Of a DNA stretch of 40,359 bases, positions 1,093 through 40,340 are shown in pieces (within the stretch, counting starts at the first letter, position 1; each line of letters begins with the position of its first letter). The notes beneath the pieces were generated by a model. The model ran no database searches. It saw only the letters and a list, made by a program, of their open reading frames with translations, and was not told the DNA's origin. Source of the DNA: Deinococcales bacterium (lineage in GTDB: Bacteria > Deinococcota > Deinococci > Deinococcales > JAAFIG01); NCBI GenBank assembly GCA_013298185.1, contig JAAFJQ010000007.1, positions 1 through 40,359 on the forward strand, written 5' to 3'. Position numbers and translations under genes: made by a program.

Positions 1093-1320
1093 ATGAATCT
1101 GCGTCAAAAAGTCACACCCATGACCTGCCTCGTTTTCCTGATTTGGACACTGTTACGGATTGCTGTGGTGGTTCTTGGTATTTTTCTTGGTCAATTGACA
1201 CAGCAAATTTGGGTTTCGGCGGTTACAGTGGTACTTGGCTTTGTGCTTGTTCAACTTCTGGTTCGCCGTATGGATACTTGGCAATTGCAAAACCGCTCAC
1301 CAAACTCGAGGAAACCATGA
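1093..1320 (+). CDS. small membrane protein (two predicted TM segments)
   Basis: ORF with hydrophobic stretches LVFLIWTLLRIAVVVLGIFLG and VSAVTVVLGFVLVQLLV; ATG at 1093 preceded by GGGAG. Confidence 0.5.
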   Translation: MNLRQKVTPMTCLVFLIWTLLRIAVVVLGIFLGQLTQQIWVSAVTVVLGFVLVQLLVRRMDTWQLQNRSPNSRKP

Positions 1321-2219
1321 AAAAACTACTCTTCATCCTTTTTGCCCTCAATTGCTTGTTGCCTCCGGCTCAGGCACAAATTGCTTTTACCCCTGCTGAA
1401 TTCATTCAAAAAATTGGGGCGAAAAAAGTTGGGTCAGACTGGAAAGTCGGACAAGCCATCATTCGCTTTGAAACCTTGGCTGGTTATGCCTATAAAATCG
1501 AGTACATTGGTTCACCCACCGATACACGTTTTGCTGCCAAAGCCTTTTTCTTAATGATGAACAACATCAGCAGTGTTGATGTTCTCGAGAAAGAAATGAA
1601 AACCGATTGGATTAAAAAGAAGGACTTGGGTACGTTCTTTAGCCCAGGCAGCAGTTACGATGCCGAAGTGGATTGGTCGTCTTCGCGTTTGCGTTTTAAG
1701 GTCATGGCTCGAGAGATCACCAACTTGGGTCAGGATCGGCTGATTTTTGGTTCGTCCGGTGTTCTGATGCGGGTTTTTAGTAGTTTTCAATGCCCGGGGT
1801 GCAAGGCTTTTCTGACCAAAGTGCTGCCTTATTTGACCCAGAACTATATCAACACTGGGAAGTTGCGTTACTCGTATCGGCATTATTTTGCTTCCTCCAT
1901 TCATTCCCAAGCTCTGCCTGCGGCTATTGCGGCTGAATGCTCAGCACGTCAAAACAAATTCTGGGAATATCATTTGCTACTTGCTCAGAGTCTCGAGATT
2001 ATGGTTCATGCCAAAGCCTTAAAGTTCAATTCATCGTTTCAAAAGTGCCTGTCCGACCCGACCATCAAACAAATTGTGATGTCAGATTTTCAAATCGCAT
2101 CAGCTTTGGGGTTGCCCGGTACGCCAACGGTTTTGATTGGTCCTTTTGTGGTGAAAAGTAAGTATGACATCAGGGTGGTCGAAGCCTTTATTAAAATGGC
2201 TCAAGTTCTGCGTAAGTAG
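1317..2219 (+). CDS. DsbA-family thioredoxin-fold secreted oxidoreductase
   Basis: Signal peptide MKKLLFILFALNCLLPPAQA; FSSFQCPGCKAFL CxxC motif; GTPTVLIG cis-Pro loop. Confidence 0.8.
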   Translation: MKKLLFILFALNCLLPPAQAQIAFTPAEFIQKIGAKKVGSDWKVGQAIIRFETLAGYAYKIEYIGSPTDTRFAAKAFFLMMNNISSVDVLEKEMKTDWIKKKDLGTFFSPGSSYDAEVDWSSSRLRFKVMAREITNLGQDRLIFGSSGVLMRVFSSFQCPGCKAFLTKVLPYLTQNYINTGKLRYSYRHYFASSIHSQALPAAIAAECSARQNKFWEYHLLLAQSLEIMVHAKALKFNSSFQKCLSDPTIKQIVMSDFQIASALGLPGTPTVLIGPFVVKSKYDIRVVEAFIKMAQVLRK

Positions 2220-2234
2220 TTGTAAACTTTTTCT

Positions 2235-3686
2235 ATGCGCCGATTGATTCCCACACCCTTGTTTGCTGTCATCTTGGTTGTGGCATTGGTTGGCTTGTCT
2301 GGCTTTGCGTTTTATCTCGTACCTTCGCAAGCTCTCACCGCCCCTCGAGTCATCATTCCCCAAGAATTACCCGCTTTTTACACAGGTGGTCTTGCCCAAG
2401 GCACAGGCGGTCAACTCGAGCAGAACTGGGATGCGTATGATCCCAAGAATTTATTTACACCTTCCCAAGCTCGAAACACCCAAAATGCCTTAATGCACCA
2501 AAGTGCTTATCCCACCCCTGAGGCTTGCGGTTCATGTCATCTCAGCATTCATCAAAACTGGCAACAATCCATTCATGCCTTCAGTGCCACAGATCGGTTG
2601 TACCTCAAAGTCAAAGATTTATTTGTCTTTGAAAAAGGTGAACCCGCTGTTCGTCTTTGTGCTGGTTGCCATGCCCCTGTTGCCCTGATGACTGGCGAAG
2701 TTGGTTTGTATAACAAAGAATCTGCCTCAAGCAAGGCTGGGGTCTCATGTGGTTTTTGTCATTCCCTCGAGACTGTCCAAGATGGCAATGGAGCATATGT
2801 CAGTAAACCTTCTCGAGTTCGTTTCTATTGGGGCGGTGATTACCTCAAAGACCCAAGTCAAGGTTTAAGCCTTGGTGATTCAGTCTCGAGATTTCTGGTC
2901 AGCACCAAACCCCAAGCCCATGCTGAAGACATGCGTCCACCTGCTTTGTTATCGGGTCAAGTCTGCCAAAGTTGCCATGAATTCCAGATCAATGGCATCA
3001 AAGTGCAAAGTACCTGGTCTGAATGGCAAGCCTCGAGTTACCCAAGCCAAGGCAAAACCTGCACCAGTTGTCACTTTCGCTCTGGAATCAATGATACGTC
3101 CCTCGAGCCTGCCGAAAGTGTGCCTGGTCGGATGCGCGAACATCTCTTGGGACATCACTTGCCCGGTGGTTCGACCCTGATTGCGCCTCGAGCTGTTCAG
3201 AATGTGGATTACTTGCGCGATGCCCTTGGACTACAGGTGCAACTCGAGACCAATAAAGTCTTGGTTAAAGTCTCGAACCTCAAGGCTGGGCATTCAATTC
3301 CAACTGGCGTCTCGGATTTACGGCAGTTATGGCTCGAGGTCAAAGCCTTCTCGAGTTCTGGAACGATGGTATTCCAAAGTGGCACGACTGATTTAGCTGG
3401 TGAAATCCGAAAAGACAGTGTTATTTTCCATCAAGTTCTGGCGGATGAACGTGGTTTTGAACTGAAACGCCATGATATTTGGAGTGCCACGAAAATTCTT
3501 GAGGACACCCGAATTCCTGCAAATGGCTCGAGAGAGGCTGAGTTTATTGTGCCGAGCGGTACGTCTCGAGTGACAGTGCGTTTACTTTGGCGTGATGTGC
3601 CAGCCAGTTTTGCCCAGATTGTGCTTTCGAGTAGTGGCTCGAGTATCCCTGTACATGTGCTGCATCAATGGACAAGTCAGCGATAA
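2235..3686 (+). CDS. multiheme (5 CxxCH) cytochrome c family protein
   Basis: N-terminal TM anchor; CGSCH, CAGCH, CGFCH, CQSCH, CTSCH. Confidence 0.85.
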   Translation: MRRLIPTPLFAVILVVALVGLSGFAFYLVPSQALTAPRVIIPQELPAFYTGGLAQGTGGQLEQNWDAYDPKNLFTPSQARNTQNALMHQSAYPTPEACGSCHLSIHQNWQQSIHAFSATDRLYLKVKDLFVFEKGEPAVRLCAGCHAPVALMTGEVGLYNKESASSKAGVSCGFCHSLETVQDGNGAYVSKPSRVRFYWGGDYLKDPSQGLSLGDSVSRFLVSTKPQAHAEDMRPPALLSGQVCQSCHEFQINGIKVQSTWSEWQASSYPSQGKTCTSCHFRSGINDTSLEPAESVPGRMREHLLGHHLPGGSTLIAPRAVQNVDYLRDALGLQVQLETNKVLVKVSNLKAGHSIPTGVSDLRQLWLEVKAFSSSGTMVFQSGTTDLAGEIRKDSVIFHQVLADERGFELKRHDIWSATKILEDTRIPANGSREAEFIVPSGTSRVTVRLLWRDVPASFAQIVLSSSGSSIPVHVLHQWTSQR

Positions 3687-3820
3687 GTAAAGCCTATGAC
3701 ATGGTACTTTGCTTTGAATGCCGGTGTTTTCCGGCGGATTTATCATTTTTGCTTCCATATCACTACGCCCGTGGTCAAATCCCACGCACAAAATCACATC
3801 TTTAAGTTACGATAGAAGCT

Positions 3821-4294
3821 ATGGAAGAAATGAATCAACGTCTGCTGCAAGAACGCGCCAAGCGTCTGGCAAAAGAAAGCGTTCAGGACAATGAAATCCC
3901 ACTCGAAATGGTGCTTTTACATGTGGGCGGCGAACAATACGCGCTCGAGTTGGTTCGCTTAAAAGCAGTCTTGCCAGCTGAAATTACGCCGTTGCCACTT
4001 GCGCCGCGCACTGTGGCAGGAGTGATGAATGTGCGTGGTGAAATTGTCAGTGTTCTGGATTTAGCCGCACTTTTGAAATTTGAGCGCGATGAAAAAGCTG
4101 TCTCGAGCGTGGTTTTAACCGAAACCAAATTTGGTTCAATCGGTTTGCGAATTGAAAATGTTCCAGAGTTGTACCAAGCCTTTATGAGCCAGCTTTCGCC
4201 AGCTTTATCGGGGCGGGATTCGGTGCGTGGTATCTTTCAAGGTAAAGTGGCTTGGCTGGATGTTGACGCGCTTTGTGACGGTCTGGACTTATGA
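3821..4294 (+). CDS. cheW: chemotaxis protein CheW
   Basis: CheW fold: [47 protein letters not shown]. Confidence 0.9.
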
Positions 4295-6468
4295 ATTTTG
4301 AAAAGCTACAACAATGGTACTCGAACCTGAACTTACTGCCCAAGTTACTGATTCAAAGTGTTTTGATTATTGTTCCAGTCATGATTTTTTCTGGTTTTGT
4401 GATTGCCAATTCAATTGAACAAGTGATCCAACGCACAGCAGGAAATCAGGTGCAGCAGCTGGCATTTAATGCCTCTGATAAACTCGATCGTAATCTGTTT
4501 GAACGTTACGGCGATGTGCAAGCCTTTGCCAAGTCTCCAGCTGCGATTAGCATGAATCCAGCTCAAATCGAGCGCTGGATGGAAATCATGTTGGCAACCT
4601 ACCGCCCAATTTATCGTCTGATGCTGGTTGCCGATACCAAAGGAAAAGTCATTGCCGCCTATGGTGTGGACAACGATGACATGAATGCCAGTTCAACCTG
4701 GAATAGCAAAGACACCTCGAGCCTTAAAGGGTTTGATGTCAGTGGCGAATCTTGGTTTCAAGAAAGCATCAGTGGCAAAGTCCTCGATGGTCAAGCGGTG
4801 GTGCGAAATGTTGCGCCCAATCCAATCATGGAGCGCTTGTATGGTCAGAATAAATCAGTCGCTATGACTTTTTCATCACCAGTTCGTAACAGTGCAGGGA
4901 AAATCATTGGTGTTTGGCATAATTTCTTTAATTGGCAAGTAGCAAAAAATGTGATTCAAGAAGTCCAAGACCGAGCCGCCAAAGATGGTTACTCGAGTAC
5001 CCGTTTTTTGCTTGTTGCCGATGATGGTTTATTGCTTTACACGCCAACTGGTAAAGACATTTTTACACGCAACATCAAAACCGAAGGGTTTGTGACTTAT
5101 ATTGCTTCGCGTAGCAACCCAGAAGGATATGCCCGTGCCAGAGATTTCTCCAATCCAGCCCTGACTTTGGATTCACCAGGTTTGGTTGGTTTTTATGTTT
5201 CACAAGGGTACTCGAGTTACGCTGGCTTAAAATGGTTGGTGCTTGCCAGTCGGTCATTAGCCGAAGTCCAAGCCGATGGAACAGTCCTAAATCAGATTTT
5301 ATTGTTTTTACGCCTTGGGGCTTTTGCGGTGGTGGTGCTGGTTCTTTTCTTAGCCGCTCGTTATATTGCCAGACAAGTCAAAGTCCTGACCAACGCCGCC
5401 GCAGCCTTAGCTGTGGGCGAACTCGATCAACAACTTGGGCAGTCTGGGCGCGATGAAATTGGGCAATTGGCAGGGTCGTTTGGGCAGATGGTTGAATACC
5501 AACGCCAAATGGCTGGGGTCGCCAACGCCATTTCACGCGGCGATCTGAGTCAGAAGCTCGAGCCAAAATCTGAACGCGATGAATTGGGTCTGGCTTTTGC
5601 GCTGATGACCAAAAACCTGCGCGAATTACTTGGCGCAGTCGGGCAGGGTAGCTCTGCCGTGGCGGCTGCCTCGAGTCAAATTCTGGCGACCTCTTCGCAA
5701 CAAGTCAAAGGCGTGCATTTGCAAAGCGCGGCTGTGGCGCAGACCGTTTCAGCCGTCGAAGAAGTCAAAAGCAGTTCTGACCAAGCGGTTGAAATTGCCA
5801 TGACCGTGGCTGAATCTGCCTCGAGTGCTTCTTTGGTGGCAACCCAAGGGGTTGAAGCGGCGAATCAAGCCAACGATGGCATGGGTGTGATTCGCGGGTC
5901 GGTGCAAAACATCGCTGAGAATATTCTAGCCCTGTCTGAACGAACCCAAGCCATTGGCGACATCATTGCGACAGTCAATGACATTGCCGACCAAAGCAAT
6001 TTGTTAGCACTGAATGCTGCCATTGAGGCTTCCCGAGCCGGTGAGCAAGGCAAGGGCTTTGCGGTGGTGGCTCAGGAAATTAGGTTGCTTTCCGAGCAGA
6101 GTAAAGATGCCACAGCGCAAGTCAAATCCATTCTGGGCGAAATTCAACGCGCCACCAACAGCGCCGTCATGACCACCGAACAAGGCATCAAAGTCGCTGA
6201 TGCAGGGGTGGAAAGCATTGCTCGAGTCTTAAAGACCATCGAAGATCTGCAAACCACGATTCAATACGCTGCACACAATGCCCAACTGATTTCAGCTTCG
6301 GTCAGACAACACAGTGCTGGGATGGAACAAATCACAGGTGCAATGCAAAGCATTGGCAGTGCCACCAAAGATAACCTGACCAGCACCGAAGACATTCGTC
6401 AAGCCACCCAAGAGCTTTCGCAACTCTCGAGCCGATTACGCGGTATGGTAGAGCAGTACCAAACCTAG
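4291..6468 (+). CDS. methyl-accepting chemotaxis protein (sensor domain, TM, HAMP, MA signalling domain)
   Basis: Hairpin signature [47 protein letters not shown]; start overlaps cheW stop (ATGA). Confidence 0.95.
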
Positions 6469-6529
6469 TACAGTTATTCAGTACCAAACCTAGTACAGTT
6501 AGTTATCCAGTACCAAACCTAAGGAAACC
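6454..6529 (+). repeat. three direct copies of CAGTACCAAACCTA(GTACAGTT) spanning the mcp stop codon
   Basis: Copies start at 6454, 6479 and 6508. Confidence 0.9.
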
Positions 6530-9205
6530 ATGACCGAAGAACTTGCCCATATCCTAGGACGTGAATTCGCGGTAGCCCTCGAAGCCCTCGAGTCTGCCTC
6601 GGATACTGGCGCGGCACGGTTGCTGCTGCATCGGGCATTGATTGCAGCTCATGCTGCTACCCACGAACTCGAGCCGTTTTTTAAGAGCTTAGTAGCTGGA
6701 GCATTACCAAGTCCCAACAGCGCCTTGGAAAGCCTGTGGCTCGAGGCTTGGACACCATTTTATTGGCAGGAATTGGCGCAACAAGATGCCCAAAAGCAAC
6801 TCGAGGCGATTCAGAACACCTCCGACGCTGGTTTAGCGAACTTATTTTTGCACCGCGCTCGGGTGTCGCTGCACAGTGCTGGGTATAATACAGCCCACGA
6901 ACTGACAGGGGTTTTAGTGGCGTTGGCAGCTGGTCAAACCCCAAGTACCAATTCCGAAATAAGCCAAGCATGGATTCAAGCATGGCAACGCTTTGGTCAA
7001 AGCGGTGTGGGCAGCCAACTGCTGGGTGTTTTTAACCAAGAACTCGAGCAGCGCCTGACGGCTTTAAGAACCGCCAAAGACCCGCAAACCATGAAACTCG
7101 AGCTGCATCGGTTGCGGGTTGCATCTCGAGCTGTACAAGACCACCTCGAGCCAGAATTATTGCGGCTTGAACGTGGCGAAACCAGTACCGTAACCGATCC
7201 GCGTCTGAAAGCCGCCTTACCTGCGGCTCGTGGTGGTTTGCCCGAAGCACCTCGGGTTGTGTCGCAGCCAGTCATGCAGCCTGTGTCGCAGCCAGTTATG
7301 CAGCCTGTGTCGCAGCCAGTTATGCAGCCAGTAATACCAGCCTCTGTCAGTGCCAGTATTCGCCCTGACAGCAGTCGGGTGGACAATGCCCAGAGTATGC
7401 TTGGGCAGAGCATCATGCCACCCATGAACCGCTCCACCGATGGCGCAGATGGCAACCGCGCTGTCAGCCAAGAAAGTGTGCGTGTTTCAGTCGCTCGGCT
7501 CGATTCTTTGCTGGCACAAGCCGGTGAACTGACCGTCGGAAGAATCCGAATCGAAGAACGCCTGCGCGACCTGCGTGACCTCTTGGCGCGGCGCAACCTC
7601 GAGCGGCGCAACTCGAGGCATTCACGCACCTTGCGGCGGCGTTTGCAGAACTTGGCAGAAGAAAACCGTGATGTCGCAGCGGTGCTTGGCTTACTTGAAA
7701 CAGGCGAAGAAAACACCCGACGAGCGCTTGATAAACTCGAGGATGTCCTGAACCGCTTAGCGGGCGATTTGGCACAACTGCGAACCGTCAATACCACCAT
7801 CGAAGACGAAGTCCTGAGTGTGCGCCTTCTGCCAGCTGCGATGCTATTCCCACCGCTCGAGCGTTTGGTGCGCGATTTGGGTCAGCAACTCGGCAAACAA
7901 GTGCGCTTGATTACCCTTGGCGGCGGCGTCGGCATAGACCGTAAAATCCTCGAGGGACTGCGCGACCCACTGATGCACATGATTCGCAATGGTGTGGATC
8001 ATGGGTTGGAAATCCCCAGTGTGCGCCAAGCCGCAGGTAAACCCAGCGAAGGCACAATTATTTTATCGGTCGCCTCGAGCGGCGGCATGGTTTCACTGCA
8101 ACTCTCCGATGACGGGGCTGGCATGGATGCAACTCGAATCCTCAAGAAAGCCGAAGAAAAAGGCATCATTCAAAGTGCTGTCAGCTTTGACCCTAAACTG
8201 GCACTGGATTTGATTTTTGAACCCGGTTTTAGCACTGCCGCTGTTGTCACCGATGTTTCAGGGCGCGGAGTTGGCATGGACGTGGTACGCCAGAATATCC
8301 GCGCTCTAAGCGGTTTGGTCAGCGTCCAAAGCCAATTAGGAGCAGGCAGCCAATTCACCATGCGCGTCCCAGCGCAACTTGCCACGGTGCGGGTTTTGTT
8401 GGTGCGGGTTGGCAATGATACGTTTGCTGTGCCAACCGCCAGTGTTGAACGCACCGGACGGGTTAAAGTCGAAGGGATTCATCAACTCGAGGGACGCAGT
8501 GTGATCATCCTCGAGGGTCGCCCAGTGCCACTGGTCGAACTCGGCGGGGTATTAGATGTACCCTTTATGGCAGGTGAATCATGGCAACCATACTTTGTGT
8601 TGCGCCGCGACGATGACCGCTTGGCTTGCACCGTGGACGCGATGCTTGGCGAACAAGAAGTGGTGGTCAAAAAACTATCCTACCCACTCGAGAAATTCGC
8701 CCCACTCGAGGGAGCAGCTGTCTTGGGTAGTGGTCAGCTTGTTTCCATTTTATCCAGTACCCACCTCATCGAACGAGGTTTGCGCCGCGAAATCCGTGTT
8801 CGCCCCAACCTCAAAATCGCCCCAACTGTGGCAGCTCGAGTCCCCCGCATCATGGTCGTGGACGACAGCATCACCAGTCGCACGTTGGAGCGCAGCATCC
8901 TAGAAGCGGCTGGTTTTGACACCATCACGGCTGTTCATGGCGCTCAAGCCCTCGAGTTCCTGCGGCGCGGCGAACATGTGGACTTGGTCGTATCCGACGT
9001 TGAAATGCCCGAATTGGACGGTTTTGGTTTAACTGGTGAAATCCGCCGCGACCCTCGCCTTGCCCAAATCCCCGTGATTTTGATTACCAGCTTAAACGCC
9101 CCTGAACACAAAGAACGCGGCGCTATGGCAGGCGCAGATGCCTATATTGTCAAAGGAGAATTCGACCAAGGGCTGCTGCTCGAGACGATTAACAGGTTGT
9201 TATGA
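6530..9205 (+). CDS. cheA: CheA histidine kinase with C-terminal receiver domain and triplicated N-terminal helical repeats
   Basis: DPLMHMIRNGVDHGLE (HATPase N box), GRGVGMDVV, CheW domain, REC domain MVVDDSITSRTLE...DLVVSDVEMPELDGFGL. Confidence 0.92.
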   Translation: MTEELAHILGREFAVALEALESASDTGAARLLLHRALIAAHAATHELEPFFKSLVAGALPSPNSALESLWLEAWTPFYWQELAQQDAQKQLEAIQNTSDAGLANLFLHRARVSLHSAGYNTAHELTGVLVALAAGQTPSTNSEISQAWIQAWQRFGQSGVGSQLLGVFNQELEQRLTALRTAKDPQTMKLELHRLRVASRAVQDHLEPELLRLERGETSTVTDPRLKAALPAARGGLPEAPRVVSQPVMQPVSQPVMQPVSQPVMQPVIPASVSASIRPDSSRVDNAQSMLGQSIMPPMNRSTDGADGNRAVSQESVRVSVARLDSLLAQAGELTVGRIRIEERLRDLRDLLARRNLERRNSRHSRTLRRRLQNLAEENRDVAAVLGLLETGEENTRRALDKLEDVLNRLAGDLAQLRTVNTTIEDEVLSVRLLPAAMLFPPLERLVRDLGQQLGKQVRLITLGGGVGIDRKILEGLRDPLMHMIRNGVDHGLEIPSVRQAAGKPSEGTIILSVASSGGMVSLQLSDDGAGMDATRILKKAEEKGIIQSAVSFDPKLALDLIFEPGFSTAAVVTDVSGRGVGMDVVRQNIRALSGLVSVQSQLGAGSQFTMRVPAQLATVRVLLVRVGNDTFAVPTASVERTGRVKVEGIHQLEGRSVIILEGRPVPLVELGGVLDVPFMAGESWQPYFVLRRDDDRLACTVDAMLGEQEVVVKKLSYPLEKFAPLEGAAVLGSGQLVSILSSTHLIERGLRREIRVRPNLKIAPTVAARVPRIMVVDDSITSRTLERSILEAAGFDTITAVHGAQALEFLRRGEHVDLVVSDVEMPELDGFGLTGEIRRDPRLAQIPVILITSLNAPEHKERGAMAGADAYIVKGEFDQGLLLETINRLL
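7263..7332 (+). repeat. 24-bp coding minisatellite (QPVMQPVS) in cheA linker
   Basis: CAGCCAGTYATGCAGCCTGTGTCG repeated about 2.7 times. Confidence 0.9.
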
Positions 9206-14699: not shown

Positions 14700-14738
14700 A
14701 AAACAACTCCCTCGAGTCTCGAGGGAGTTGTTTTATTT
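14700..14738 (+). terminator. intrinsic terminator after trxA whose stem contains CTCGAG twice
   Basis: AAAACAACTCCCTCGA-GTC-TCGAGGGAGTTGTTTT followed by a T-rich tract. Confidence 0.85.
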
Positions 14739-17952: not shown

Positions 17953-18754
17953 AATACAAAACAGCTACCGCTTTTCGGCGTGCCTTAACTGACCTTGCAC
18001 TCAAAAATGGATACGAGCATCAGCGCTGGTTTCGGATGGTCGCCTTTGAACGGTTTTTGGCAAGGATTTTCACGATTCCACACCCGCATTGGGTCTTAAA
18101 AGGTGGTTATGCGCTCGAGTTACGACTGCAAAGCAAAGCCCGAAGCACCAAAGACCTTGATCTGAGCGTGCCACCACCAGCTTTAAAAGACTTGCTCGAG
18201 CAATTGCAAAACGCGGCTGCACTTGACTTAAACGATTACTTTGAGTTTCGCGTCACCAACACCTCAGATTTACAAGGCGCTCCTGAAGGCGGTTTGCGAT
18301 TTAACATCGAAGTTGTGTTGGACGGAAAAATCTTCTCGGTATTTCATGTTGACATCGGACAAGGCGACACACACAGCACACCACTCGAGTATCTACCAAG
18401 CAAGGTTGATTTTGGTTTTGCGGATTTGGAGAATCCAGTTTTTCCAAGTTACCCATGCGTGACCACTTTGCTGAGAAACTACACGCTTACACCAGACCTC
18501 GAGAACAAAAAACCCGAGTCAAGGATTTACTGGATTTAGCGCTTTTGATGGACATGGGTTTAACAAATGATGAAGCCCTCAAGCAACGAATTCAAGTGGT
18601 TTTTGCAGCATATGAAACGCACAGTCTGCCCAATCCATTACCTGAACCGCCTAAAGATTGGCTCGAGCCTTTTGCAACATTGGCGATTGAACTCGGTTTA
18701 GACCCACCTGATGCGCTGATTTGGCTGGGACGGATTCAAGTTTTTATTGCTTAA
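17949..18754 (+). pseudogene. abiEii: AbiEii-family nucleotidyltransferase toxin, split by a frameshift near 18453
   Basis: ORF 17949-18539 (HPHWVLKGGYALELRLQSKARSTKDLDLSV) continues in another frame as 18455-18754 (RDHFAEKLHAYTRPREQKTRVKDLLDLALLM). Confidence 0.8.
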
Positions 18755-21005
18755 GCCAACTCAAAGTCGGTGCAAGTGCAAATAATTCTTCTTGAATCCC
18801 ACTCGAGAAAATTTGGGCAAATTGCGCTGGTGTACAAGCCCGCTCGAGTTTTTTAGCGTAAACCCGCTCGAGCAAATCCAAGTAATGCTGCACATGGTAA
18901 TCGGTTGCCATCTCGAGGGGATGACTGCTTTCATCGGCTGCCAAAATCCCGTAACCATGTTGCCGTTTGTATAAACGAATCCGCTGTCCTTTGTGCCAAT
19001 CGCGCTCAGCCTCGAGCATGGCTTCGTAAGCTGCCTCACGCATTTTTGAGCGACTGATTTGGTACTCTTGCATGGTTTTTCGTAAGCGCACTCGGGTCGC
19101 CAGTTCTTTTGCCGCGTACCCTCGAGCCAGAATTTTTGCTCGAGTCTCGAGGTAAATTTCTTTGATGCGTTCAGGATTGTTCTCGAGGGCGGCTTTGACA
19201 ATGCTTTCAGTAAAAACTTGCATAGCAGGTTCAAAGCGACTGCTGCGAAAATTCACGCCGCGCAACAAAACACTTCCATCGCGCCGTAGCAAAGCATAGT
19301 TTTTGATGTCATGCGAAAGCATCGCGGGGTACAGGTCATCGAACTCGAGGGTAATGCCTTCTGGTAGTGAATCAGAAATCTGTTTGATCAGTTCTCGAGC
19401 CGCCGATTCGGATAGGGGAGAGGCAAAGAAAACCCCGTCGGTGTCGGCTTCTAAAAGTTGTACTTTGGCTTGGCGAAGCTGTGAAATCACATGCTCGAGA
19501 ATTTCACGCCCTGTTTGCGTGATTTTGTCAGCCGCATGACGGTCAGCGAACAATGCCATTTGCCCAGCCCCCAAATACCCATAAGCGCTATTCAAAACCA
19601 ATTTCAGCGCGGCTTGCATGGCATCATGCACTGTGCTTTGCATCGCATCATGCACTGTGCTTTGCATGGCATCATGCACTGTGCTTTGCATCGCATCGTG
19701 GTGTGTGTTCTTCTCGAGCTTCGCAAGGCGCTTATGCTCGAGCCGCCGCGAGAGCATTTGTTTGACCAAGCTCAGCAGCACGCCCAACTCGTCGCAACTG
19801 GGGCTGATTTCAAAGGCTCGCATCACGCTTGGGTACAGCGAAGCAATATCGGCTTTGACCACATTCTTGGCTAACCCCGCATGAAATAAAAACACTGCGC
19901 CGCCTTCGTGTGGCTTTTCCAAATAAGCACAATCCGAACTTGGCAAGGCTCGGCTGGCATGGTGGTAAGCCCGCACCAACATCGGCTCGAGAATCCCCGT
20001 GGCTGTCCCAGCGCTCGAGATTCGCTCAAAGCGCCTCGGAGCAAGTTTAGAGAGGGCAAAACTGGCGGGCATCAGTTTTTGGCTAAGCCTGCCCACTTCA
20101 CGCACATCCTCGAGTGCGTAAGCCCGTACCAATTCAGGCTGAGTCGCGTACAAACTGGCAATGTTCGCCCCCTCGAGATAAACCCGATCTGGAGCGGATA
20201 ACCCATAATGTTTAGCCACATCTTTAAGGCGATGACTTGGCAATTCTCGAGTCACAAAATCATGCCGCCAAACTGCATCCAGCGTATCAATGATTTCTCG
20301 TCCAGCCACGCTGAAACGCTCACCTTCGCGGCGCAACACAGCTTGGGTGCGTCCCAAAGTCAGCGGAATCTGGTGTAGCGCAGCTCGAGCTTGCAAAAAT
20401 GGCAAGTCAAACCCATTGATGTTATGGTTTTCGATCACATCAGGGTCACAACTTTGTACCACCTCGAGCAGTTGCCGAATCAGGGTTGGTTCATCCCCTT
20501 CAAGCAGGATTTCAAAACCACTCGAGTCTCGCACAGCAATTAAGAAAATCTGTCCATCTTCGGGTTTTAATGCTGTTGTCTCGAGGTCAAATTGAAGGCG
20601 GTGAAGTTCGCTAAACTCGAGGTTCTTAAAAAACGTTTTGCCTGTTGCCATCAGGTACTGTTCACTGAGTCCTACCGCGTAAAAATCTGGATTTTCTCGA
20701 GATAAATTCAGCACCCGCCGCAAATGCAACCAGTTGGCGGCTGAAACTAAGAACGGATACGACCCTGAACCCGGTAGCTCCTGAATGCTTAAACCTTTGG
20801 CTAACCAGTCGGATTGGATTTTTTTGGCGTAGACCCAAGGCGTGAAAGCATCCTGCTCGAGAATAAGTTGCCCATCCACCCGTCGCCAGACACGCACATG
20901 ACCGTTGGGCGCAGCATCTATAGACACAATCCCCGAGGTTAAATCCCACCCCTCGAGCCAATGTTGTGTGTTGTGCGAAATCTGAAGGTTCATTTCTGTT
21001 TTCAC
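18744..21005 (-). CDS. polB: family B DNA polymerase
   Basis: FDLETT (ExoI), NHNINGFDLPFL (ExoII), VKADIASLYPSVM, LVLNSAYGYLG, EADTDGVFF. Confidence 0.92.
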   Translation of the reverse strand: MKTEMNLQISHNTQHWLEGWDLTSGIVSIDAAPNGHVRVWRRVDGQLILEQDAFTPWVYAKKIQSDWLAKGLSIQELPGSGSYPFLVSAANWLHLRRVLNLSRENPDFYAVGLSEQYLMATGKTFFKNLEFSELHRLQFDLETTALKPEDGQIFLIAVRDSSGFEILLEGDEPTLIRQLLEVVQSCDPDVIENHNINGFDLPFLQARAALHQIPLTLGRTQAVLRREGERFSVAGREIIDTLDAVWRHDFVTRELPSHRLKDVAKHYGLSAPDRVYLEGANIASLYATQPELVRAYALEDVREVGRLSQKLMPASFALSKLAPRRFERISSAGTATGILEPMLVRAYHHASRALPSSDCAYLEKPHEGGAVFLFHAGLAKNVVKADIASLYPSVMRAFEISPSCDELGVLLSLVKQMLSRRLEHKRLAKLEKNTHHDAMQSTVHDAMQSTVHDAMQSTVHDAMQAALKLVLNSAYGYLGAGQMALFADRHAADKITQTGREILEHVISQLRQAKVQLLEADTDGVFFASPLSESAARELIKQISDSLPEGITLEFDDLYPAMLSHDIKNYALLRRDGSVLLRGVNFRSSRFEPAMQVFTESIVKAALENNPERIKEIYLETRAKILARGYAAKELATRVRLRKTMQEYQISRSKMREAAYEAMLEAERDWHKGQRIRLYKRQHGYGILAADESSHPLEMATDYHVQHYLDLLERVYAKKLERACTPAQFAQIFSSGIQEELFALAPTLSWLKQ
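19617..19700 (+). repeat. 24-bp coding minisatellite (HDAMQSTV) in polB
   Basis: GCATCATGCACTGTGCTTTGCATS repeated more than 3 times. Confidence 0.95.
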
Positions 21006-27590: not shown

Positions 27591-27639
27591 GGGGGTGGGG
27601 CATGATTACATCACAGGTGAAATCGGAAATTTATATCTT

Positions 27640-27673
27640 TCCGTAGGGGCGCAGCGCGCTGCGCCCCTACGGA
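27640..27673. repeat. 34-bp perfect palindrome TCCGTAGGGGCGCAGCGCGCTGCGCCCCTACGGA
   Basis: Exact self-complementarity; shares ends with the element at 38396-38490. Confidence 0.95.
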
Positions 27674-29526: not shown

Positions 29527-30378
29527 GTGTCAGATAGCAAAGATCGTCCAGTGTACGTGATCAGCGTCGCCGCCGAGCTTGTGGAAATGCACCCACAAAC
29601 ACTGCGTTTGTATGAACGCAAAGGCTTGATTCGCCCAGGACGCTCGAGCGGTAAAACACGACTGTACTCCGAGCGCGACATTGAATACTTGCGTGAAATT
29701 CGGCGATTAACCCAAGAATTAGGCGTGAATTTAGCTGGGGTCGAAGAAATCATGAAATTGCGCTTTGAACTCGACGAAGTGCAAATTAAACTCGAGGGTG
29801 AAATTTTTAGGCTCGAGGGAGCAATTCGAGCTGAGTTCGCTGCTCAGAACGCCAGCCTTGAATCCAACGACCCCAAAGACAAAGGTGTTTTTGTGATCAG
29901 CGTAGCTGCCGAATTGGTGGACATGCACCCGCAGACGCTCAGGCTCTATGAGCGTAAAAACCTGATTCGTCCAAAACGCTCGAGTGGCAAAACCCGTCTG
30001 TACTCCGAACGTGACATTCTGCACCTCAAAGACATCAAACGCTTAACCCAAGAACTTGGTGTGAATTTAGCTGGGGTCGAAGAAGTCATGAAGTTACGCT
30101 TTGAACTCGATGACGCCCAAGACCGTCTCGAGCATGAAGCCACCCGATTGCAAAACGAGATTGCTGACCGCATTGAACTGATGAAAGGGCATTCGCTGCC
30201 AAGTTCTAAACCAAAAGCCAAAAGTAAAGCTCAGCCTAAAAGCAAAATTGAGCCTAAAGTAGAAGCTCAGCCTAAAGCCAGCACTGCTAAACCAAAAGCT
30301 CAGCCAAAAAGCAAAGTACAACCAAAAATCAGTGCCGCCAAACCAAAAGCTCGAGTCAAATCAGGGCGTGTGCCTTAA
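29527..30378 (+). CDS. tandem-duplicated HspR/MerR-family regulator with Lys/Pro-rich tail
   Basis: Two copies of (V/F)VISVAAELV(E/D)[12 protein letters not shown](G/N)LIRP(G/K)[17 protein letters not shown] start. Confidence 0.85.
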
Positions 30379-32171: not shown

Positions 32172-32582
32172 ATGAACATGAGTATATCCTTTGTCGGTAA
32201 AAATTCACTCATTGGTTCTTTTGGTGCAGTATTAACTATTTTGTTTGGGTATTTATTTAATAGCTGGATTAATATTCCTGTGCTTCCTATAAAAATCGGA
32301 AATCTTGGTTTTTTAATTCTCTCTATTTTTGTTTGGCTTTTTTTCCGTTTAGCAAGATTAGTTAAAGAAAGTACATTTTATGCTTTTATGAACGGAAGTT
32401 TTATGGCAATATGTATGTTCTTCGTGAATGACACTGCCAAGTATCTTGAATCCATACTTTCTGAATATGGATTTTCGGCTCTTGGATTTGTTGTGATCTT
32501 TATGGTTTGTGCCGTTTTACTTTCAATGAGTCTAAATTTTGTCGGCAAAAAAATCTGGAAACGTACACTTATCCACGATTAG
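32172..32582 (+). CDS. small integral membrane protein (about 4 TM)
   Basis: Hydrophobic, AT-rich, starts 6 nt after the orphan antitoxin. Confidence 0.6.
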
Positions 32583-33846: not shown

Positions 33847-34085
33847 GTGACCAAGTTTAAGCTGGACTTGCTGATTGCGACAAAACAAACTCGAGAACAC
33901 CAAAGAGTTCAGGTGAATCATCCACCGTGTAGCTCTGCGTTATCTAAACTAAATTGCAATTCAGCCCGAAACATCGCCGATGGCTCGAGTGGTGCGGTGT
34001 GCAGATTTGTTTCAAAGTAACGAATCTGAAACTGTTGCTGCACTGCGCCAATGTTACGAAAATCGCTAAATGCCATGAGTACAGT

Positions 34086-35087
34086 TTAAGCATTTTGCAT
34101 GAGTTGAGGCTGCACACTTGGTATTCCTGCCACAAACAGCGCCACGCGCAATTCATAAATCATTCGCTCGAGAACTTCAATCACCGCTTCAGGGCTTTTG
34201 GTGGCTGGCTCGAGCAGCGGCATGGCGGTGGCACAAACCGTTGCGCCTTTGGTTAAGGCTTTGGCAATATCCAAGCCACTGCGGATGCCGCCAGATGCCA
34301 TCAAGGGCATGGTAGGCAGGGACGCATGACACTGCTCGAGGGCGGTCAGGGTGGGAATACCAATTTCGCATAGGTCTGGGTACAACAGCTTTCCATGATG
34401 AGCGAAATCCTCGACTTTTGCCCAACTTGTGCCGCCGGCTCCTGCCACATCGAGGGCTGCAAAACCGACATTCTGAACAGCCTTGGCAACACTGCCCGAT
34501 AAGCCATGCCCAACTTCTTTGAGCATCACGGGGTACTGGACTTTTGGAACAATCTGCTTGAGGATCGGAATCAAACCCATAAAATCAGTATCACCACCAA
34601 TTTGCAGGGCTTCTTGTAATGGATTGGTATGAAAAGCAATGGCATCTGCGCCAATCAGTTCAATGGCTTTTTTGGCTTGGTTGTGATCGTAGCCTTTTTT
34701 GAATTGTGCCACGCCAAGGTTGCCAATGAGAAGCACATCGGGGGCATATTGCCGCACTGAAAAACTTGCTCGAGCGCTTTCATGTTCGAGCATCACGCGC
34801 TGGCTACCAAGCATCAAACCCAAGCCCAGTGCCTGAGCAGCTATTGCCAAATTCTTGTTGATTGTACCAGCCAAATCTGCGCCGCCTGTCATTGCGCCAA
34901 TCAAAAGCGGCGCTTTTAAGGTTTTGCCCAAAAATCTTGTCTCGAGTTGAACATCCTCGAGCCTTAATTCTGGCAAGGCACGGTATGCCCAAGGCAGGCT
35001 TTCAAAGCCCGTGGTTTTGGTGGAGAACTGCACAGGGTACTCGAGACAAACGTTGATGTGTTTTAATTTTCTTGCAGAAAGGCTCAC
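34086..35087 (-). CDS. fni: type 2 isopentenyl-diphosphate delta-isomerase
   Basis: APLLIGAMTGGADLAGTINKNLAIAAQALGLGLMLGSQRVML; VMLKEVGHGLS; DVAGAGGTSWAKVE; MASGGIRSGLDIAKAL. Confidence 0.93.
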   Translation of the reverse strand: MSLSARKLKHINVCLEYPVQFSTKTTGFESLPWAYRALPELRLEDVQLETRFLGKTLKAPLLIGAMTGGADLAGTINKNLAIAAQALGLGLMLGSQRVMLEHESARASFSVRQYAPDVLLIGNLGVAQFKKGYDHNQAKKAIELIGADAIAFHTNPLQEALQIGGDTDFMGLIPILKQIVPKVQYPVMLKEVGHGLSGSVAKAVQNVGFAALDVAGAGGTSWAKVEDFAHHGKLLYPDLCEIGIPTLTALEQCHASLPTMPLMASGGIRSGLDIAKALTKGATVCATAMPLLEPATKSPEAVIEVLERMIYELRVALFVAGIPSVQPQLMQNA

Positions 35088-35096
35088 AGGCTTAGT

Positions 35097-36350
35097 CTAA
35101 TGGTTTTCTTTCGGGTCATGCTGTGCGATCAATTGGGCGATCACATTTCTGTCAAGTTCACCCGAGCGGTTAATCTCGAGAACCGCATCTGAAACTTTAG
35201 TGTCAGATAAGGCTTCGATGAAAAGCGGCACGAGGGCAGGGTCAAAGTGTGTACCCGCGTCTTTTTTGAGGACTTCAAAAGTCTGCTCCCATGTTTTTGC
35301 AGTGTTATAGGGACGGGCTGTGGACATGGCATCAAAGGCATCGGAAATACCAACCATTCGTGCCAAAATCGGAATTTCTTCGCCGGCTAAGCCATCAGGA
35401 TAGCCTTTGCCATCCCAGCGTTCATGGTGCGAACGAATGGCGGATAAAATCCCTTCAAAACCCTTGGTGTTCTCGCGCAGCAATCGCTCACCAATCACAG
35501 CATGTTGCTTAATGACCCCAAACTCTTCTTCGGTCAGCTTACCTGTTTTATGCAAATACACATCGCGGATACCAATTTTACCGATGTCATGGACAAAACC
35601 AGCGAACAGCGCCCGCTCGAGGTCAGCTGCTGCCCAACCAAGTTTCTCAGCCAGTTTTTTGGTGTATAAACCCACCCGATCTGAGTGACCAGCGGTGTAT
35701 TCATCGCGGGATTCAAGTGTGGAAAGCATGATTTTAACAAGAGAAACATAATTTTCGTGTTCTTGCACAATGCTTCGGGCGAGTGTGACCGCCACGCCAG
35801 CTTGCGCTGCGAAACCACTTAAGATGCTGGCGTCTGACTCGGTGAACGCCCGTTGGGTGAATTGTGTATCCACGTACAAAACCCCAATGACTGTGTCTCT
35901 GGCACGAAGCGGTACAGCCAGCACACTGCGAATATCCAAAGCCAAAATGCTTTCAGAAGCCCCATACCCAGTGTCTTCTTGAACATTGGTGGTGATGATG
36001 CTTTCTTTGGTGGTCACAACCCGTTCTAAAAGGGTTCTCGAGACTTGCACTTCTTCGTGCGAATCCTTGGAACAACTGTCCACCACCCGCACCGAGCCGC
36101 CCTCAACCAAAGCCAGCGCTCCACGGTCGGCTTGCATCAGGCGCACTGCTTCCTCGAGCATGTCTTGGAACAGCGTAATCACATCAAAGCTGTCACGCAC
36201 GCTGCTGAGTTTCATGCCAAGGCTCTGAAAAGCGGTCAGCGCACTGCGTTCTGCCTCGAGTTCTCGGGTGATGGTTTTCACCCGACCACCAACTTGCGGC
36301 GGCAGCAGCGAAGCGATTTGCGTTAATTGCTCGAGAGGGCTGGCAGGCAC
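35097..36350 (-). CDS. GAF + HD-GYP domain protein (putative c-di-GMP phosphodiesterase)
   Basis: GAF region; HSDRVGLYTKKLAEKLG...FVHDIGKIGIRD...RSHHERWDGKGYPDGLAGEEIPILARMVGISDAFDAM. Confidence 0.92.
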   Translation of the reverse strand: MPASPLEQLTQIASLLPPQVGGRVKTITRELEAERSALTAFQSLGMKLSSVRDSFDVITLFQDMLEEAVRLMQADRGALALVEGGSVRVVDSCSKDSHEEVQVSRTLLERVVTTKESIITTNVQEDTGYGASESILALDIRSVLAVPLRARDTVIGVLYVDTQFTQRAFTESDASILSGFAAQAGVAVTLARSIVQEHENYVSLVKIMLSTLESRDEYTAGHSDRVGLYTKKLAEKLGWAAADLERALFAGFVHDIGKIGIRDVYLHKTGKLTEEEFGVIKQHAVIGERLLRENTKGFEGILSAIRSHHERWDGKGYPDGLAGEEIPILARMVGISDAFDAMSTARPYNTAKTWEQTFEVLKKDAGTHFDPALVPLFIEALSDTKVSDAVLEINRSGELDRNVIAQLIAQHDPKENH

Positions 36351-36409
36351 AAACCCAGTTTACCTGAGATTTGACTTGACATGCTCAGATTGGCTCACAA
36401 TCCCATGGC

Positions 36410-36937
36410 TCAGCTCGAGAATAAGTTTTGTTGTACCTCGGTTTGACCAAGTAAAAGCGGGGTTTTCTGTCTCGGTTTGGCTTGGCGTTTAGGTACAGGT
36501 AACACAATCGGTGGAGGCATGATTTTTGGCTCAGGTGGCGCAGCAACCTCGAGAACCAGTTTTTTAGTTGCTCGTTTTGCTTTGATTTCCGGCTCGAGCA
36601 TAACTTCTGGTGCTTTGATTTTAGCAACTCGAGCAGCTTTGATTTTGACTTCTGGCTCGAGAACCACAACTTCTGGGACTGAAATAACCTCAGGTTCTAT
36701 TTCCAAAGCCGCCTCGAGCAATGCCTTGGCTTTGGCACGTCGTGCTTCGGGTGGCAGATGCCCAGCTCGCCAACCACGGTTGCAGGTATGACACCAATAG
36801 GCTTGGTCGCCATCGCGGGTGTCTTTGAGCATCAGTGCGCCCTCGCAAACAGGGCAAGAAAGGATTTGACCGTAACTGCTGATTCGCTCGAGCGAGTGCT
36901 GTTTGAAACTGATTGGTTTACTGGTAAGGCGACCCAT
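36410..36937 (-). CDS. zinc-ribbon protein with repetitive Pro/Glu/Lys tail
   Basis: CPVCEGALMLKDTRDGDQAYWCHTCNRGW. Confidence 0.65.
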   Translation of the reverse strand: MGRLTSKPISFKQHSLERISSYGQILSCPVCEGALMLKDTRDGDQAYWCHTCNRGWRAGHLPPEARRAKAKALLEAALEIEPEVISVPEVVVLEPEVKIKAARVAKIKAPEVMLEPEIKAKRATKKLVLEVAAPPEPKIMPPPIVLPVPKRQAKPRQKTPLLLGQTEVQQNLFSS

Positions 36938-37079
36938 AGTGGTATGATTATAACATATTTTGGTATATGGATTTCAACATGCGCGTAGTAGCATTTAGCT
37001 ACTGCCTTCTAGTTATTAGCTTTTTGTCTGTGCTGGATGGATTTCTCGAGTCATGGTTTGTTTCCTCGAGAAGCCAAAA

Positions 37080-39791
37080 TCAAACACCATCTTTGGCAAG
37101 ATCATTGAATCTAACGTGCTGTGAGTGAAATTGCAACTCGACAGTACCAACCGGACCATTGCGTTGCTTACCAATGATGATTTCAGCAATCCCTTGTTTT
37201 TCCGAATCCTTGTGGTAATACTCATCGCGGTAAATAAAAGAAACAAGGTCTGCGTCCTGCTCAATTGCACCTGAGTTATGCGAGACAATGCCATCGGCAA
37301 GCCAAGAAGCCACACCCGGAACGGTCAAATCAAAGACTTCGGCTTGACCATCTGGAATAATCTCGAGAATGTCATCCCAAAGGAGATGTGGCTCGAGTGC
37401 AAAATCAGACACATGATTTTCGGGTGCAAAGTCTGGTAAGTCTCGAGGTTCGGGCAAGTAACGCGCCATTGCCACACGATTACCTTGTTTCAAATCCCCA
37501 AGTTCTGTCCAGCCACCCGCCGCAAAAATCCGATGTTGCGCTGTGCAACGAAGCTCACGCCCACTCGAGAGACGCAATTTGAAAACGGGTTTGACCCCAA
37601 CCGACCAAACCAAATCTGATTGTGCTTTGACCAATTTTCCATCTGGTGCAACAGCAATCACTTCAGGGGTGCGCCCGACCAAATCCCGAATCGGCATTCG
37701 CAGACCGTTTGACAGACAAACCAGTGTTTCACCCGTCACACATTCACGTAAATCCGACAGCATCGGACGATGGTTTGGACGAGACTCCACCTGCCTCGAG
37801 AGTTGACTCAGCACCACCACAGGAATGTTCAATTCCCTTGCCAAGGATTTTAAGCCCCTCGAGATGGTTGAAATTTCTTGTTGCCGATTCTCGCCGCCGC
37901 CTTTGCTCGAGCCACTGCCAGACATGAGCTGCATGTAATCAATCACAATCAAATGCAAATCTTTTTCCGCCATCAAACGCCGAGATTTCGAGCGCAACTC
38001 CGTCACGGTTAAATCCGAAGCATCATCAATAAACATCGGCGCTTCGGAGAGCTTACCAGCCGCATTGACCAAGCGCTCAAAGTCTTTTTCGTTGAGCGCA
38101 CCTTGCCGCACACGGTTCATATCCACTCGAGCCTCGGCGCACATCATACGAAGCACAAGTTGCGAAGCGGGCATCTCGAGACTAAAGACAGCCACGGCTT
38201 TATTCTGCCGCACCGCAATGTTCTGCGCGATGGACAAGGCAAATGCCGTATTGTGAACACAAACATCTTGGGCAATAAAATTAGAACCATCAGGTACAGT
38301 TAAATCATAAACTTGCTGCGGCTCGAGCGCCTTGATTTGAACAATCTCATCCCAATACAAATCTGGACTCGAGCTGAAATCCGTTCTTGGTTTTTCGTAG
38401 GGGAGGGGCTTGTCCCCTCCCTGACCAGCCAAAGCCAAAGCTAAATCGGCATTGGCTGATTCAGGGCGAACACGAGGGTCGCCCCTACGGTTGATTGGTG
38501 TGGTTCGTGGATGAGGTTTTTTGATGAAATGGTTTGAGGCGAATTCCACCGATTCTGGCTCATTAATAAAAACCCGCCAAACGAAGTTATTTTGTTGTTG
38601 TAATCCAGCAATCACTCCAAATCTGGTGAGGGCGTGCTGCACGTCTCGAGCGGTTTGTTTTTGGGTGAAAGAAAAAGAAAATGAATGCGGTAAGTGATAA
38701 AAAACCTCAAAAATCGCACTTAAGAAAACACTCAAGCGTTCGCGGTCAAATCGCCAGACTTCTTTGGGAAACGGACTGTGGTCAGCCAAAACTCGAGCTG
38801 CCAACTCGAGAACTTCTGATTTTGATGTACTCGAGTCATCCCCAAAAGCCGCGACCACTCGAGGGACAGCGATTTTGCTTCCAACACTTAAATCATGCAG
38901 CGGAGTCCAGCCACTCACCGTTAAGAATGGATGATGCCCTGTGACTTCGACTTCACGCCCTAGTTTGGAGATAACCTTAAAAACTGGTTTGATACCACTG
39001 TCAATCCAAGCTGAAATTCTGGTCGGACGCACCTGCCCTTCGTCTGAGACACCAAAAACACAGGAGCGCTTCTCGAGAATGAACTGCTCGAGGCGCAGAC
39101 GTTCGCCTGTGTGCGGGTCGTCTATAAGCGTGTGAGCCGTTAAGCACTTACCCATGCTTGGACGCGCGGCAATCACATTGAGCGACCCCGGTTGCAAACC
39201 TGTGGTCATTTCGTCCAAATCACGGAAACCCGTCGGAACACCCGTGGTAAAGCCCGGATTGCTGGTGATTTTCGAGATGTACTCAAAGGTCTCATTAACC
39301 AGTGTGTTCATGTCCTGAAAAACCTGTTGGCTTTTTTTCTGAGCCACTTCAAACACCAGTTTCTCAGCCCTGTCCATCAACTCATCGGCAGGAGCAGCTT
39401 CGTCATAGGCAAGTTGCATGATTTTGCTCGAGGCGCTAATCAAGCCGCGCAAATTGGCTTTTTCAATCACAATATCGGCGTAGAACTTGGCGTAAACACT
39501 GGTTGGCACACCATCGGACAAACCCACCAAGTACGCCACCCCGCCGACTTCCTCGAGTTGGTCTTTGGTGCGAAGTTCTTCGATCAGCGTTACACTATCG
39601 GCAGGATTGCCTTTGGAAATCAGGTTCTCCATGGCAGCAAAAATTTTTCGATTGGCTTCTTTATAAAAATGCTCAGGGCGAAGCGTACCTTCTAAGCTGT
39701 GATACGCCTCGTTATCGAGCAATACACTACCCAAAACGCTGGCTTCAGCGTCGAGGTTGTGCGGGGGAATGCGTCCGTGAAGTTCTTCCAT
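37080..39791 (-). CDS. dnaB: replicative DNA helicase DnaB containing two inteins
   Basis: Exteins DAEASVLGSVLLDNEAY, NVIAARPSMGK^TAFALSIAQN, LSQLSRQVESR, SDLRE^SGAIEQDADLVSFIYRDEYY. Confidence 0.95.
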   Translation of the reverse strand: MEELHGRIPPHNLDAEASVLGSVLLDNEAYHSLEGTLRPEHFYKEANRKIFAAMENLISKGNPADSVTLIEELRTKDQLEEVGGVAYLVGLSDGVPTSVYAKFYADIVIEKANLRGLISASSKIMQLAYDEAAPADELMDRAEKLVFEVAQKKSQQVFQDMNTLVNETFEYISKITSNPGFTTGVPTGFRDLDEMTTGLQPGSLNVIAARPSMGKCLTAHTLIDDPHTGERLRLEQFILEKRSCVFGVSDEGQVRPTRISAWIDSGIKPVFKVISKLGREVEVTGHHPFLTVSGWTPLHDLSVGSKIAVPRVVAAFGDDSSTSKSEVLELAARVLADHSPFPKEVWRFDRERLSVFLSAIFEVFYHLPHSFSFSFTQKQTARDVQHALTRFGVIAGLQQQNNFVWRVFINEPESVEFASNHFIKKPHPRTTPINRRGDPRVRPESANADLALALAGQGGDKPLPYEKPRTDFSSSPDLYWDEIVQIKALEPQQVYDLTVPDGSNFIAQDVCVHNTAFALSIAQNIAVRQNKAVAVFSLEMPASQLVLRMMCAEARVDMNRVRQGALNEKDFERLVNAAGKLSEAPMFIDDASDLTVTELRSKSRRLMAEKDLHLIVIDYMQLMSGSGSSKGGGENRQQEISTISRGLKSLARELNIPVVVLSQLSRQVESRPNHRPMLSDLRECVTGETLVCLSNGLRMPIRDLVGRTPEVIAVAPDGKLVKAQSDLVWSVGVKPVFKLRLSSGRELRCTAQHRIFAAGGWTELGDLKQGNRVAMARYLPEPRDLPDFAPENHVSDFALEPHLLWDDILEIIPDGQAEVFDLTVPGVASWLADGIVSHNSGAIEQDADLVSFIYRDEYYHKDSEKQGIAEIIIGKQRNGPVGTVELQFHSQHVRFNDLAKDGV
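37275..37742 (-). other. intein 2 (mini-intein, 156 aa), at SDLRE^S
   Basis: Starts CVTGETLVCLSNG, ends WLADGIVSHN, +1 residue Ser. Confidence 0.93.
38250..39146 (-). other. intein 1 (299 aa), in the Walker A P-loop at PSMGK^T, with degenerate endonuclease region
   Basis: Starts CLTAHTLIDD, ends FIAQDVCVHN, +1 residue Thr; ARVLADH and FLSAIFEVFYH resemble eroded LAGLIDADG motifs. Confidence 0.92.
38396..38490. repeat. palindromic repeat element (CGTAGGGG...CCCCTACGG) inserted inside intein 1
   Basis: CGTAGGGGAGGGG...GGGTCGCCCCTACGG; encodes INRRGDPRVRPESANADLALALAGQGGDKPLPY. Confidence 0.8.
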
Positions 39792-39887
39792 AAGGGGATG
39801 AGGGTTAAAAGGCTAAAAGGTCAAAAGGTTAAAAGTGGTTTGGCTCGAGATACTTTTTACCTTTTTTACTTTTTACCTTTTTCACTT

Positions 39888-40340
39888 CTACCTCGGTCTT
39901 GCCATGACAACAACCCATGCACCGTTAAATTGGGCTGCTCCGACTTCGGTGTAGTTGGGATTGGTGATTGCCCAGCAGTGGATTCTCGAGTTTTTCCACC
40001 AATTCACGGCTCTGGATGCGCCGCCATTACCAAGGAAAATAATTTCGGACATTCTCGAGTACCGATAACCCGCTCGAGCGACTCGGGTGCGCGGTCCAAC
40101 ACCTTTGTAGTAATGTGAGACAAAGCGTTTTGAACCCATGTTCAGGGCGTGAACTCGAGCCGCTTTGGAAAGCGTGTTGTTCCAGCGCATGGCGCTTAGT
40201 TTCACGCCGCCAGAACCGTTGCAGCGAGCGCCTGAAGTACGAAAAGCATTGATGATGCTGACCACCCGAGATTCATTGGTGCTTCTGGCATCTGCAAAGC
40301 TCGAGATCACAAGGATGAGTATAAGAACAAAAAATCGCAT
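39888..40340 (-). CDS. secreted CAP/SCP-domain protein
   Basis: Signal peptide; INAFRTSGARCNG...LSKAARVHALNM...SHYYKGVGPRTRVARAGYRYSRMSEIIFLGNG...HCWAITNPNYTEVGAA. Confidence 0.85.
   Translation of the reverse strand: MRFFVLILILVISSFADARSTNESRVVSIINAFRTSGARCNGSGGVKLSAMRWNNTLSKAARVHALNMGSKRFVSHYYKGVGPRTRVARAGYRYSRMSEIIFLGNGGASRAVNWWKNSRIHCWAITNPNYTEVGAAQFNGAWVVVMARPR

Follow-up and report, generated by a model that had tools for sequence, protein, structure and literature searches.

The DNA analysed here, a stretch of 40,359 bp referred to as the window, raises the question why a single palindrome, CTCGAG, occurs in it so often and what could keep it there. The first-pass annotation had put the number of sites at about 270, with about 10 expected. 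The exact count is 270 (about 1 per 150 bp), and the expectation lies between 4 and 16: dinucleotide shuffles gave 6.8, an order-2 Markov model gave 16 and models with the sites masked gave 3–4, the unmasked order-2 fit underestimating the excess. CTCGAG is the commonest of all 6-mers in the window and its sole strongly enriched palindrome. The comparison with other 6-mer palindromes that the annotation had proposed places AGCGCT next, with only 23 copies. The sites and the features used below are as follows.

1305..40310, no strand assigned: 270 dispersed copies of CTCGAG (count)
350..1063, plus strand: open reading frame with 34% GC and zero CTCGAG, probably a recent acquisition; negative control
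6530..9205, plus strand: cheA, 21 CTCGAG by site count (7.9 per kb), a typical gene
14700..14734, plus strand: intrinsic terminator of trxA, its stem built around two CTCGAG (14711 and 14718)
18744..20999, minus strand: gene of a family-B DNA polymerase, 27 CTCGAG by site count (12 per kb), one of the densest genes of the window
32172..32582, plus strand: open reading frame with 32% GC and zero CTCGAG, probably a recent acquisition; negative control

The first site is found at position 1305, and the low-GC opening 1.3 kb contains none. Genes with a GC content far under the median have few or zero sites, which is what is to be expected for recently arrived DNA.

The excess extends over the whole source genome (G000, 4.41 Mb). 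With 26,619 copies, equivalent to 6,038 per Mb or about 1 per 166 bp, CTCGAG is far over the Markov expectation, as the annotation had anticipated for a genome-wide signal, and in the source lineage the excess is about 50–100-fold. The letter-reversed hexamer GAGCTC occurs only four times in the entire genome; it is unfit as a neutral control because G000 avoids most 6-mer palindromes. Of the 64 possible palindromes of this length 21 are missing from the window, and GGCC is nearly absent (3 copies versus about 164 expected in the window, 17 versus 1,833 expected in 430 kb of G000). This scarcity is a restriction-avoidance pattern, and CTCGAG contrasts with such a background still more. Apart from CTCGAG, clear enrichment among the palindromes is seen for AGCGCT alone, about 2.5-fold in the 430 kb.

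The sites of the window fall into the three reading frames as 145, 39 and 52, with 34 more outside genes or at gene edges, and the density is 6.8 per kb in coding and 6.1 per kb in non-coding DNA. CTC-GAG encodes 145 of the 194 Leu-Glu pairs, in agreement with the 17 of 24 that had been noted for cheA. The 430 kb of G000 contain 2,632 sites (5.8 per kb in non-coding DNA, 6.1 per kb overall); there, about 70% of the Leu-Glu pairs are CTC-GAG, versus 2% predicted from neighbouring codon usage. In G000 the Leu-Glu frame gives an odds ratio of 114 and the two remaining frames give 48 and 50; the intergenic ratio of observed to expected sites (O/E) is 55. Taking G000, G001 and G003 together, the odds are 54–116 for Leu-Glu and 42–68 for the other frames, with an intergenic O/E of 51–83; the GC-richer G002 shows lower and more scattered odds (12–58). 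Amino acid contexts able to hold the hexamer are occupied in 2,393 of 4,117 cases (58%) in G000. As the density is equal across frames and between genes, the effect is one on DNA level: the bias acts on the DNA word with log odds of about 4, similar in all frames and in intergenic DNA. The view that selection or bias on the DNA, rather than codon or protein effects, is at work is thereby confirmed.

The source genome belongs to a family (f1) with three further species, G001–G003, one of the same genus and two of the same family, all of them draft assemblies 91–95% complete. The lineage is related to Meiothermus and Thermus, and the family is placed in the same order as Meiothermus. Accordingly, RimO of the window has its nearest named match in Meiothermus granaticius (63% identity), a species that NCBI taxonomy lists under Deinococcota, Thermaceae. 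Genome G015 shares 79% DNA identity with this species across 1.1 kb; the labels of the remaining groups, such as Meiothermus-like, denote presumed kinship. In a survey of 111 genomes of the phylum, with O/E computed from fetched stretches, the f1 genomes showed an O/E of 28–112, and the three beside G000 have 27–28 thousand CTCGAG each. In the sampled DNA of G000–G003 the density is nearly constant at 6–7 per kb, despite a GC content ranging from 44 to 61%. Two genomes of the group f2, G012 and G016, reached about 67–75. Values of about 8–16 were found for Meiothermus-like genomes and G008, the Meiothermus-like relatives (g13) having about 1,400–3,100 sites per Mb, and of 2–8 for many other genomes of the phylum. 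In G004 (f2; L088), a sister of CTCGAG-rich genomes, the hexamer is avoided (O/E 0.1), and no XhoI-family endonuclease was detectable. The proposed genome-wide signal was found throughout G000 and is shared by relatives.

A viral contig of 110 kb (IMGVR_UViG_3300018422_000001, L328) has 57 CTCGAG and zero GAGCTC in the 9.7 kb examined; it may be a phage whose host is rich in CTCGAG. Among the matches listed in a triple-site scan for viral carriers, most were GC-rich phages with similar GAGCTC counts, and the scan was uninformative.

We considered whether individual sites are conserved. Between genera, a conserved Leu-Glu pair that is CTC-GAG in one genome is mostly CTC-GAG in the other, whereas control codon pairs are identical in just 14–25% of cases; CTCGAG is retained far above neighbouring synonymous codons, which is the pattern that the annotation had suggested looking for. 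The number of conserved Leu-Glu pairs occupied in both genomes was nevertheless as expected by chance: 36 versus 35.3 for G000 and G003, and 56 versus 54.8 for G001 and G003. Within the genus there is slight memory (72 versus 62.3). Occupancy is thus statistically independent between genera, and it is the genome-wide level that is maintained, not single positions. It is an equilibrium in which sites are continually re-formed and individual positions are unimportant.

The hexamer also leaves a trace in the proteins. Leu-Glu is the most over-represented dipeptide in all four f1 genomes (2.1–2.4-fold, z 15–47), and the reversed dipeptide Glu-Leu stays at 0.94–1.0. Leu-Glu reaches 1.5–1.64-fold in the Meiothermus-like relatives with intermediate CTCGAG levels, 1.40 in the slightly enriched G047 and only 0.98–1.14-fold in the CTCGAG-poor G004, G041, G007 and G005. 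Since the dipeptide tracks the CTCGAG level, the bias appears able to replace amino acids, and the signal appears to have altered protein composition. The surplus over random amounts to about 1,100 Leu-Glu pairs per 430 kb of G000; extrapolated to the whole genome, this would come to roughly 11,000 pairs.

As to spacing, the number of sites per kb follows a Poisson distribution (variance/mean 1.02), and past about 70 bp nothing points to selection for an even spacing. At short range the sites exclude each other, as analysed with 9,235 sites in 1.5 Mb: in coding DNA, pairs occur at 0.30–0.39 of the baseline at distances of 6–14 bp, at 0.53–0.60 at 15–20 bp and at about 0.9 at 21–26 bp, with a weaker deficit out to about 70 bp. 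With the amino acids held fixed, compatible positions 7–20 bp apart gave a Mantel–Haenszel odds ratio of 0.50 (z –5.5). Ordinary inverted repeats of 4 GC with matched composition showed 0.85–1.1 at equal distances in coding DNA, so that avoidance of hairpins is rejected as the cause of the exclusion. Exclusion of sites without exclusion of inverted repeats suggests a footprint of about 20 bp. No short-range exclusion was found in intergenic DNA, which is due at least in part to terminator-like stems formed by pairs of CTCGAG. The intergenic loci of G000–G003 contain many such stems made from two CTCGAG, as at trxA, where the sites that the annotation had placed in the terminator stem were located.

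The accumulation of CTCGAG is firm; as to its mechanism, we infer that it is a HIP-like palindrome kept up by weak selection across the genome, which favours its occupancy by a candidate DNA-binding factor, a reading that we prefer tentatively and rate slightly below an even chance. A fixation bias on the DNA word would keep CTCGAG at about 6,000 copies per Mb; the data show that it restores sites where the protein permits, re-codes Leu-Glu pairs and goes along with extra Leu-Glu pairs in proteins, independently of particular positions. A sequence-specific DNA-binding factor, different from a dedicated CTCGAG DNA methyltransferase, may sit on the hexamer and cover about 20 bp. Every occupied site might bring a small fitness gain, be it through segregation, repair or the architecture of the chromosome, whereas another site within one footprint would contribute little. 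That the putative factor serves the nucleoid, segregation or repair is guesswork based on the density of sites. The nucleoid protein among the options of the annotation comes out as the best fit, since the mutual exclusion of close sites suits a protein that binds DNA, in the nucleoid or elsewhere; the analysis identified no such protein. Three observations speak against the selection model: the transition neighbours of CTCGAG are 1.3–3-fold enriched, which simple reversible selection does not predict, the counts per kb are Poisson, and the exclusion is absent from intergenic DNA. A more far-reaching version, that the chromosome is saturated with the palindrome of a putative chromatin-like architectural or repair protein at 1 per about 166 bp, as a methylation-independent HIP with a measurable footprint and thousands of added Leu-Glu, is possible, with the balance leaning against it.

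Several alternatives have to be weighed. First, an orphan methyltransferase could methylate CTCGAG, and methyl-directed mismatch repair or a methylation-dependent function could make and keep the sites. This has the nearest known precedent: every HIP-bearing cyanobacterial genome has a methyltransferase able to modify that HIP (Elhai 2015, PMC4390886). Furthermore, Nocardia possesses an orphan CTCGAG methyltransferase with replication-linked clusters of the motif near dnaA (PMC4752239). The CTCGAG-rich genomes were searched for PF07669, PF01555, PF00145, PF02086 and PF02384 and the candidates compared (METHYLTRANSFERASES). Within these five Pfam families no methyltransferase was common to G000–G003 and G012; the repertoires are patchy, and as the drafts are 91–95% complete a common gene could be missed. 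The nearest case was a C5 enzyme present in G000, G001 and G012. The plasmid M.PaeR7I-type methyltransferase beside its own endonuclease served as reference for CTCGAG specificity, together with the methyltransferases adjoining XhoI-family endonucleases in G009 and three species of the group f4. By homology, no M.PaeR7I-type enzyme was found in G000, G001 or G003; in G002 there is just a relative with 26% identity. Two Meiothermus-like genomes, G015 and G025 (L166, L167), have M.PaeR7I-type methyltransferases with 63–64% identity that are apparently orphan, no endonuclease being detected; G077 has a more distant one, likewise without a detected endonuclease. Such enzymes would favour a methyltransferase, but Meiothermus-like genomes without them are equally dense in CTCGAG. 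The orphan CTCGAG methyltransferase of the annotation was accordingly seen in some Meiothermus-like relatives and not as an enzyme common to the rich genomes. Within the limits of draft genomes the methyltransferase model fails its defining test here, and we consider it unlikely.

A further methyltransferase resembling M.Eco57I (alignment A1; Meiothermus-like genomes and the group f3) was rejected, as it is missing from f1 and its presence does not track CTCGAG density. In G005 and G047 (L135, L136), two genera, an M.Eco57I-like methyltransferase lies between genes that apparently encode the primase DnaG and a subunit of a V-type ATPase; no endonuclease was noticed, and the enzyme is a candidate conserved orphan methyltransferase.

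The endonuclease counterpart is rare. XhoI-family endonucleases (PF04555) occur in 4 of the 111 genomes, namely G009 and three species of one f4 genus, and neither G015 nor G025 is among them. The three f4 species have about 700–970 CTCGAG per Mb versus about 1,650–1,970 in sister species. Sites being fewer where the enzyme occurs, cleavage appears to counter-select, and the sites respond to selection.

Second, biased mutation or very-short-patch repair could turn near-matches into CTCGAG or shield existing sites, the cell gaining nothing. The like strength in all contexts, the position-independent equilibrium and the Poisson counts per kb are what a neutral bias gives. Repair of this kind should draw on the one-off words, but the 18 words pooled were observed 2,508 times versus 2,009 expected. 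Most transversion neighbours were slightly below expectation, and CTTGAG/CTCAAG, the deaminated neighbour and Vsr-like substrate, was enriched 1.28-fold in G000 and 1.99-fold in G001 instead of depleted. With 5264 sites on both strands CTCGAG outnumbers the entire pool of one-off words. Because these words are not jointly depleted, repair of the Vsr type, the other option raised by the annotation, is disfavoured; moreover, the exclusion over about 20 bp and the doubling of Leu-Glu are not readily explained by a purely mutational bias. We regard this explanation as quite unlikely.

Third, a putative uptake machinery preferring CTCGAG could have spread it through transformation. Natural transformation is known in the Thermaceae, the spread is independent of position, and the low-GC, probably foreign genes are poor in sites. 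The uptake sequences of Neisseria (DUS) and the Pasteurellaceae (USS) are likewise short motifs dispersed in thousands of copies without positional conservation. Their density is about 1 per kb, several times less than that of CTCGAG, and they are longer and read by uptake machinery, whereas CTCGAG, a palindrome of just 6 bp, recurs every 166 bp and is not known to have a reader. In addition, selection for uptake should saturate at the scale of fragments, yet the counts per kb are Poisson. An uptake drive is therefore improbable; both it and repair bias are possible models by which the exclusion is not readily explained.

Finally, CTCGAG serves in cloning as the XhoI site and Leu-Glu is common in helices, but an ordinary cause, be it codon or dipeptide bias or an assembly or adaptor artefact, has next to no chance of being correct and is rejected, as nothing else was found in its favour, three frames and intergenic DNA are equally dense, Leu-Glu follows CTCGAG among relatives while Glu-Leu does not, no adaptor was seen in the flanks of the sites, and the hexamer is found in several independent assemblies of 44–61% GC.

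With selection for occupancy as the preferred reading, CTCGAG can be set beside the known systems. HIP1 (GCGATCGC) and the alternate HIPs of cyanobacteria (PMC4390886) are likewise dispersed, hugely over-represented, genome-wide, lineage-specific and lost in some relatives. The over-representation in f1 (O/E 28–112, with about 2.5 for the next palindrome AGCGCT) is that of a HIP. In contrast, sequence and phylum are different, the density of 6,038 per Mb exceeds the 300–2,700 per Mb typical of HIP1, and the GC content of 67% lies below the 75–100% of the palindromes that replace HIP1 (Elhai 2015). HIP1 proper is not what is found here, its core CGATCG being avoided in G000 (8 versus 47 expected in 430 kb). 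CTCGAG further differs from HIP1 by its measurable dipeptide effect and short-range exclusion of sites, and from the HIP class in that no cognate methyltransferase was found in the richest genomes; for this last reason we do not count it among the HIPs despite its HIP-like behaviour. The same hexamer is clustered at the origin in Nocardia (PMC4752239) and is uniform genome-wide here, without that methyltransferase. PaeR7I and XhoI have the identical recognition sequence, and the XhoI-family endonuclease is missing from f1 and f2 in the 111-genome search. A search of the openly accessible literature, REBASE not being covered, brought up no earlier description of CTCGAG as a HIP in Deinococcota.

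To our knowledge, HIP1 has been unexplained since 1995, and CTCGAG offers an independent and stronger HIP-like case in another phylum. Its graded relatives (rich, intermediate, absent and avoided), the cultivable Meiothermus included, make selection versus repair bias and the need for methylation directly testable. If true, the upkeep of a dispersed palindrome in genomes that lack a cognate methyltransferase would contradict the leading published model. CTCGAG moreover shows with unusual clarity how a non-coding DNA signal can alter amino acid usage proteome-wide, with relevance for models of codon and protein evolution and, within this group, for finding genes and for synthetic design.

Some further features of the window were noted. 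The dnaB open reading frame (37080–39791, minus strand) has two apparent inteins, judged from its sequence. At about 38390–38421, apparently in or near the first of them, lies an element with many matches in G001, some of them with identities as high as 100%; it is a dispersed repeat that stays in frame and resembles the Rickettsia palindromic elements. A REP-like palindromic repeat of 30 bp at about 27639–27672 recurs on several G002 contigs, where both orientations occur. The MerR-family protein encoded at 29527–30378 (plus strand) has the MerR DNA-binding domain duplicated within one chain.
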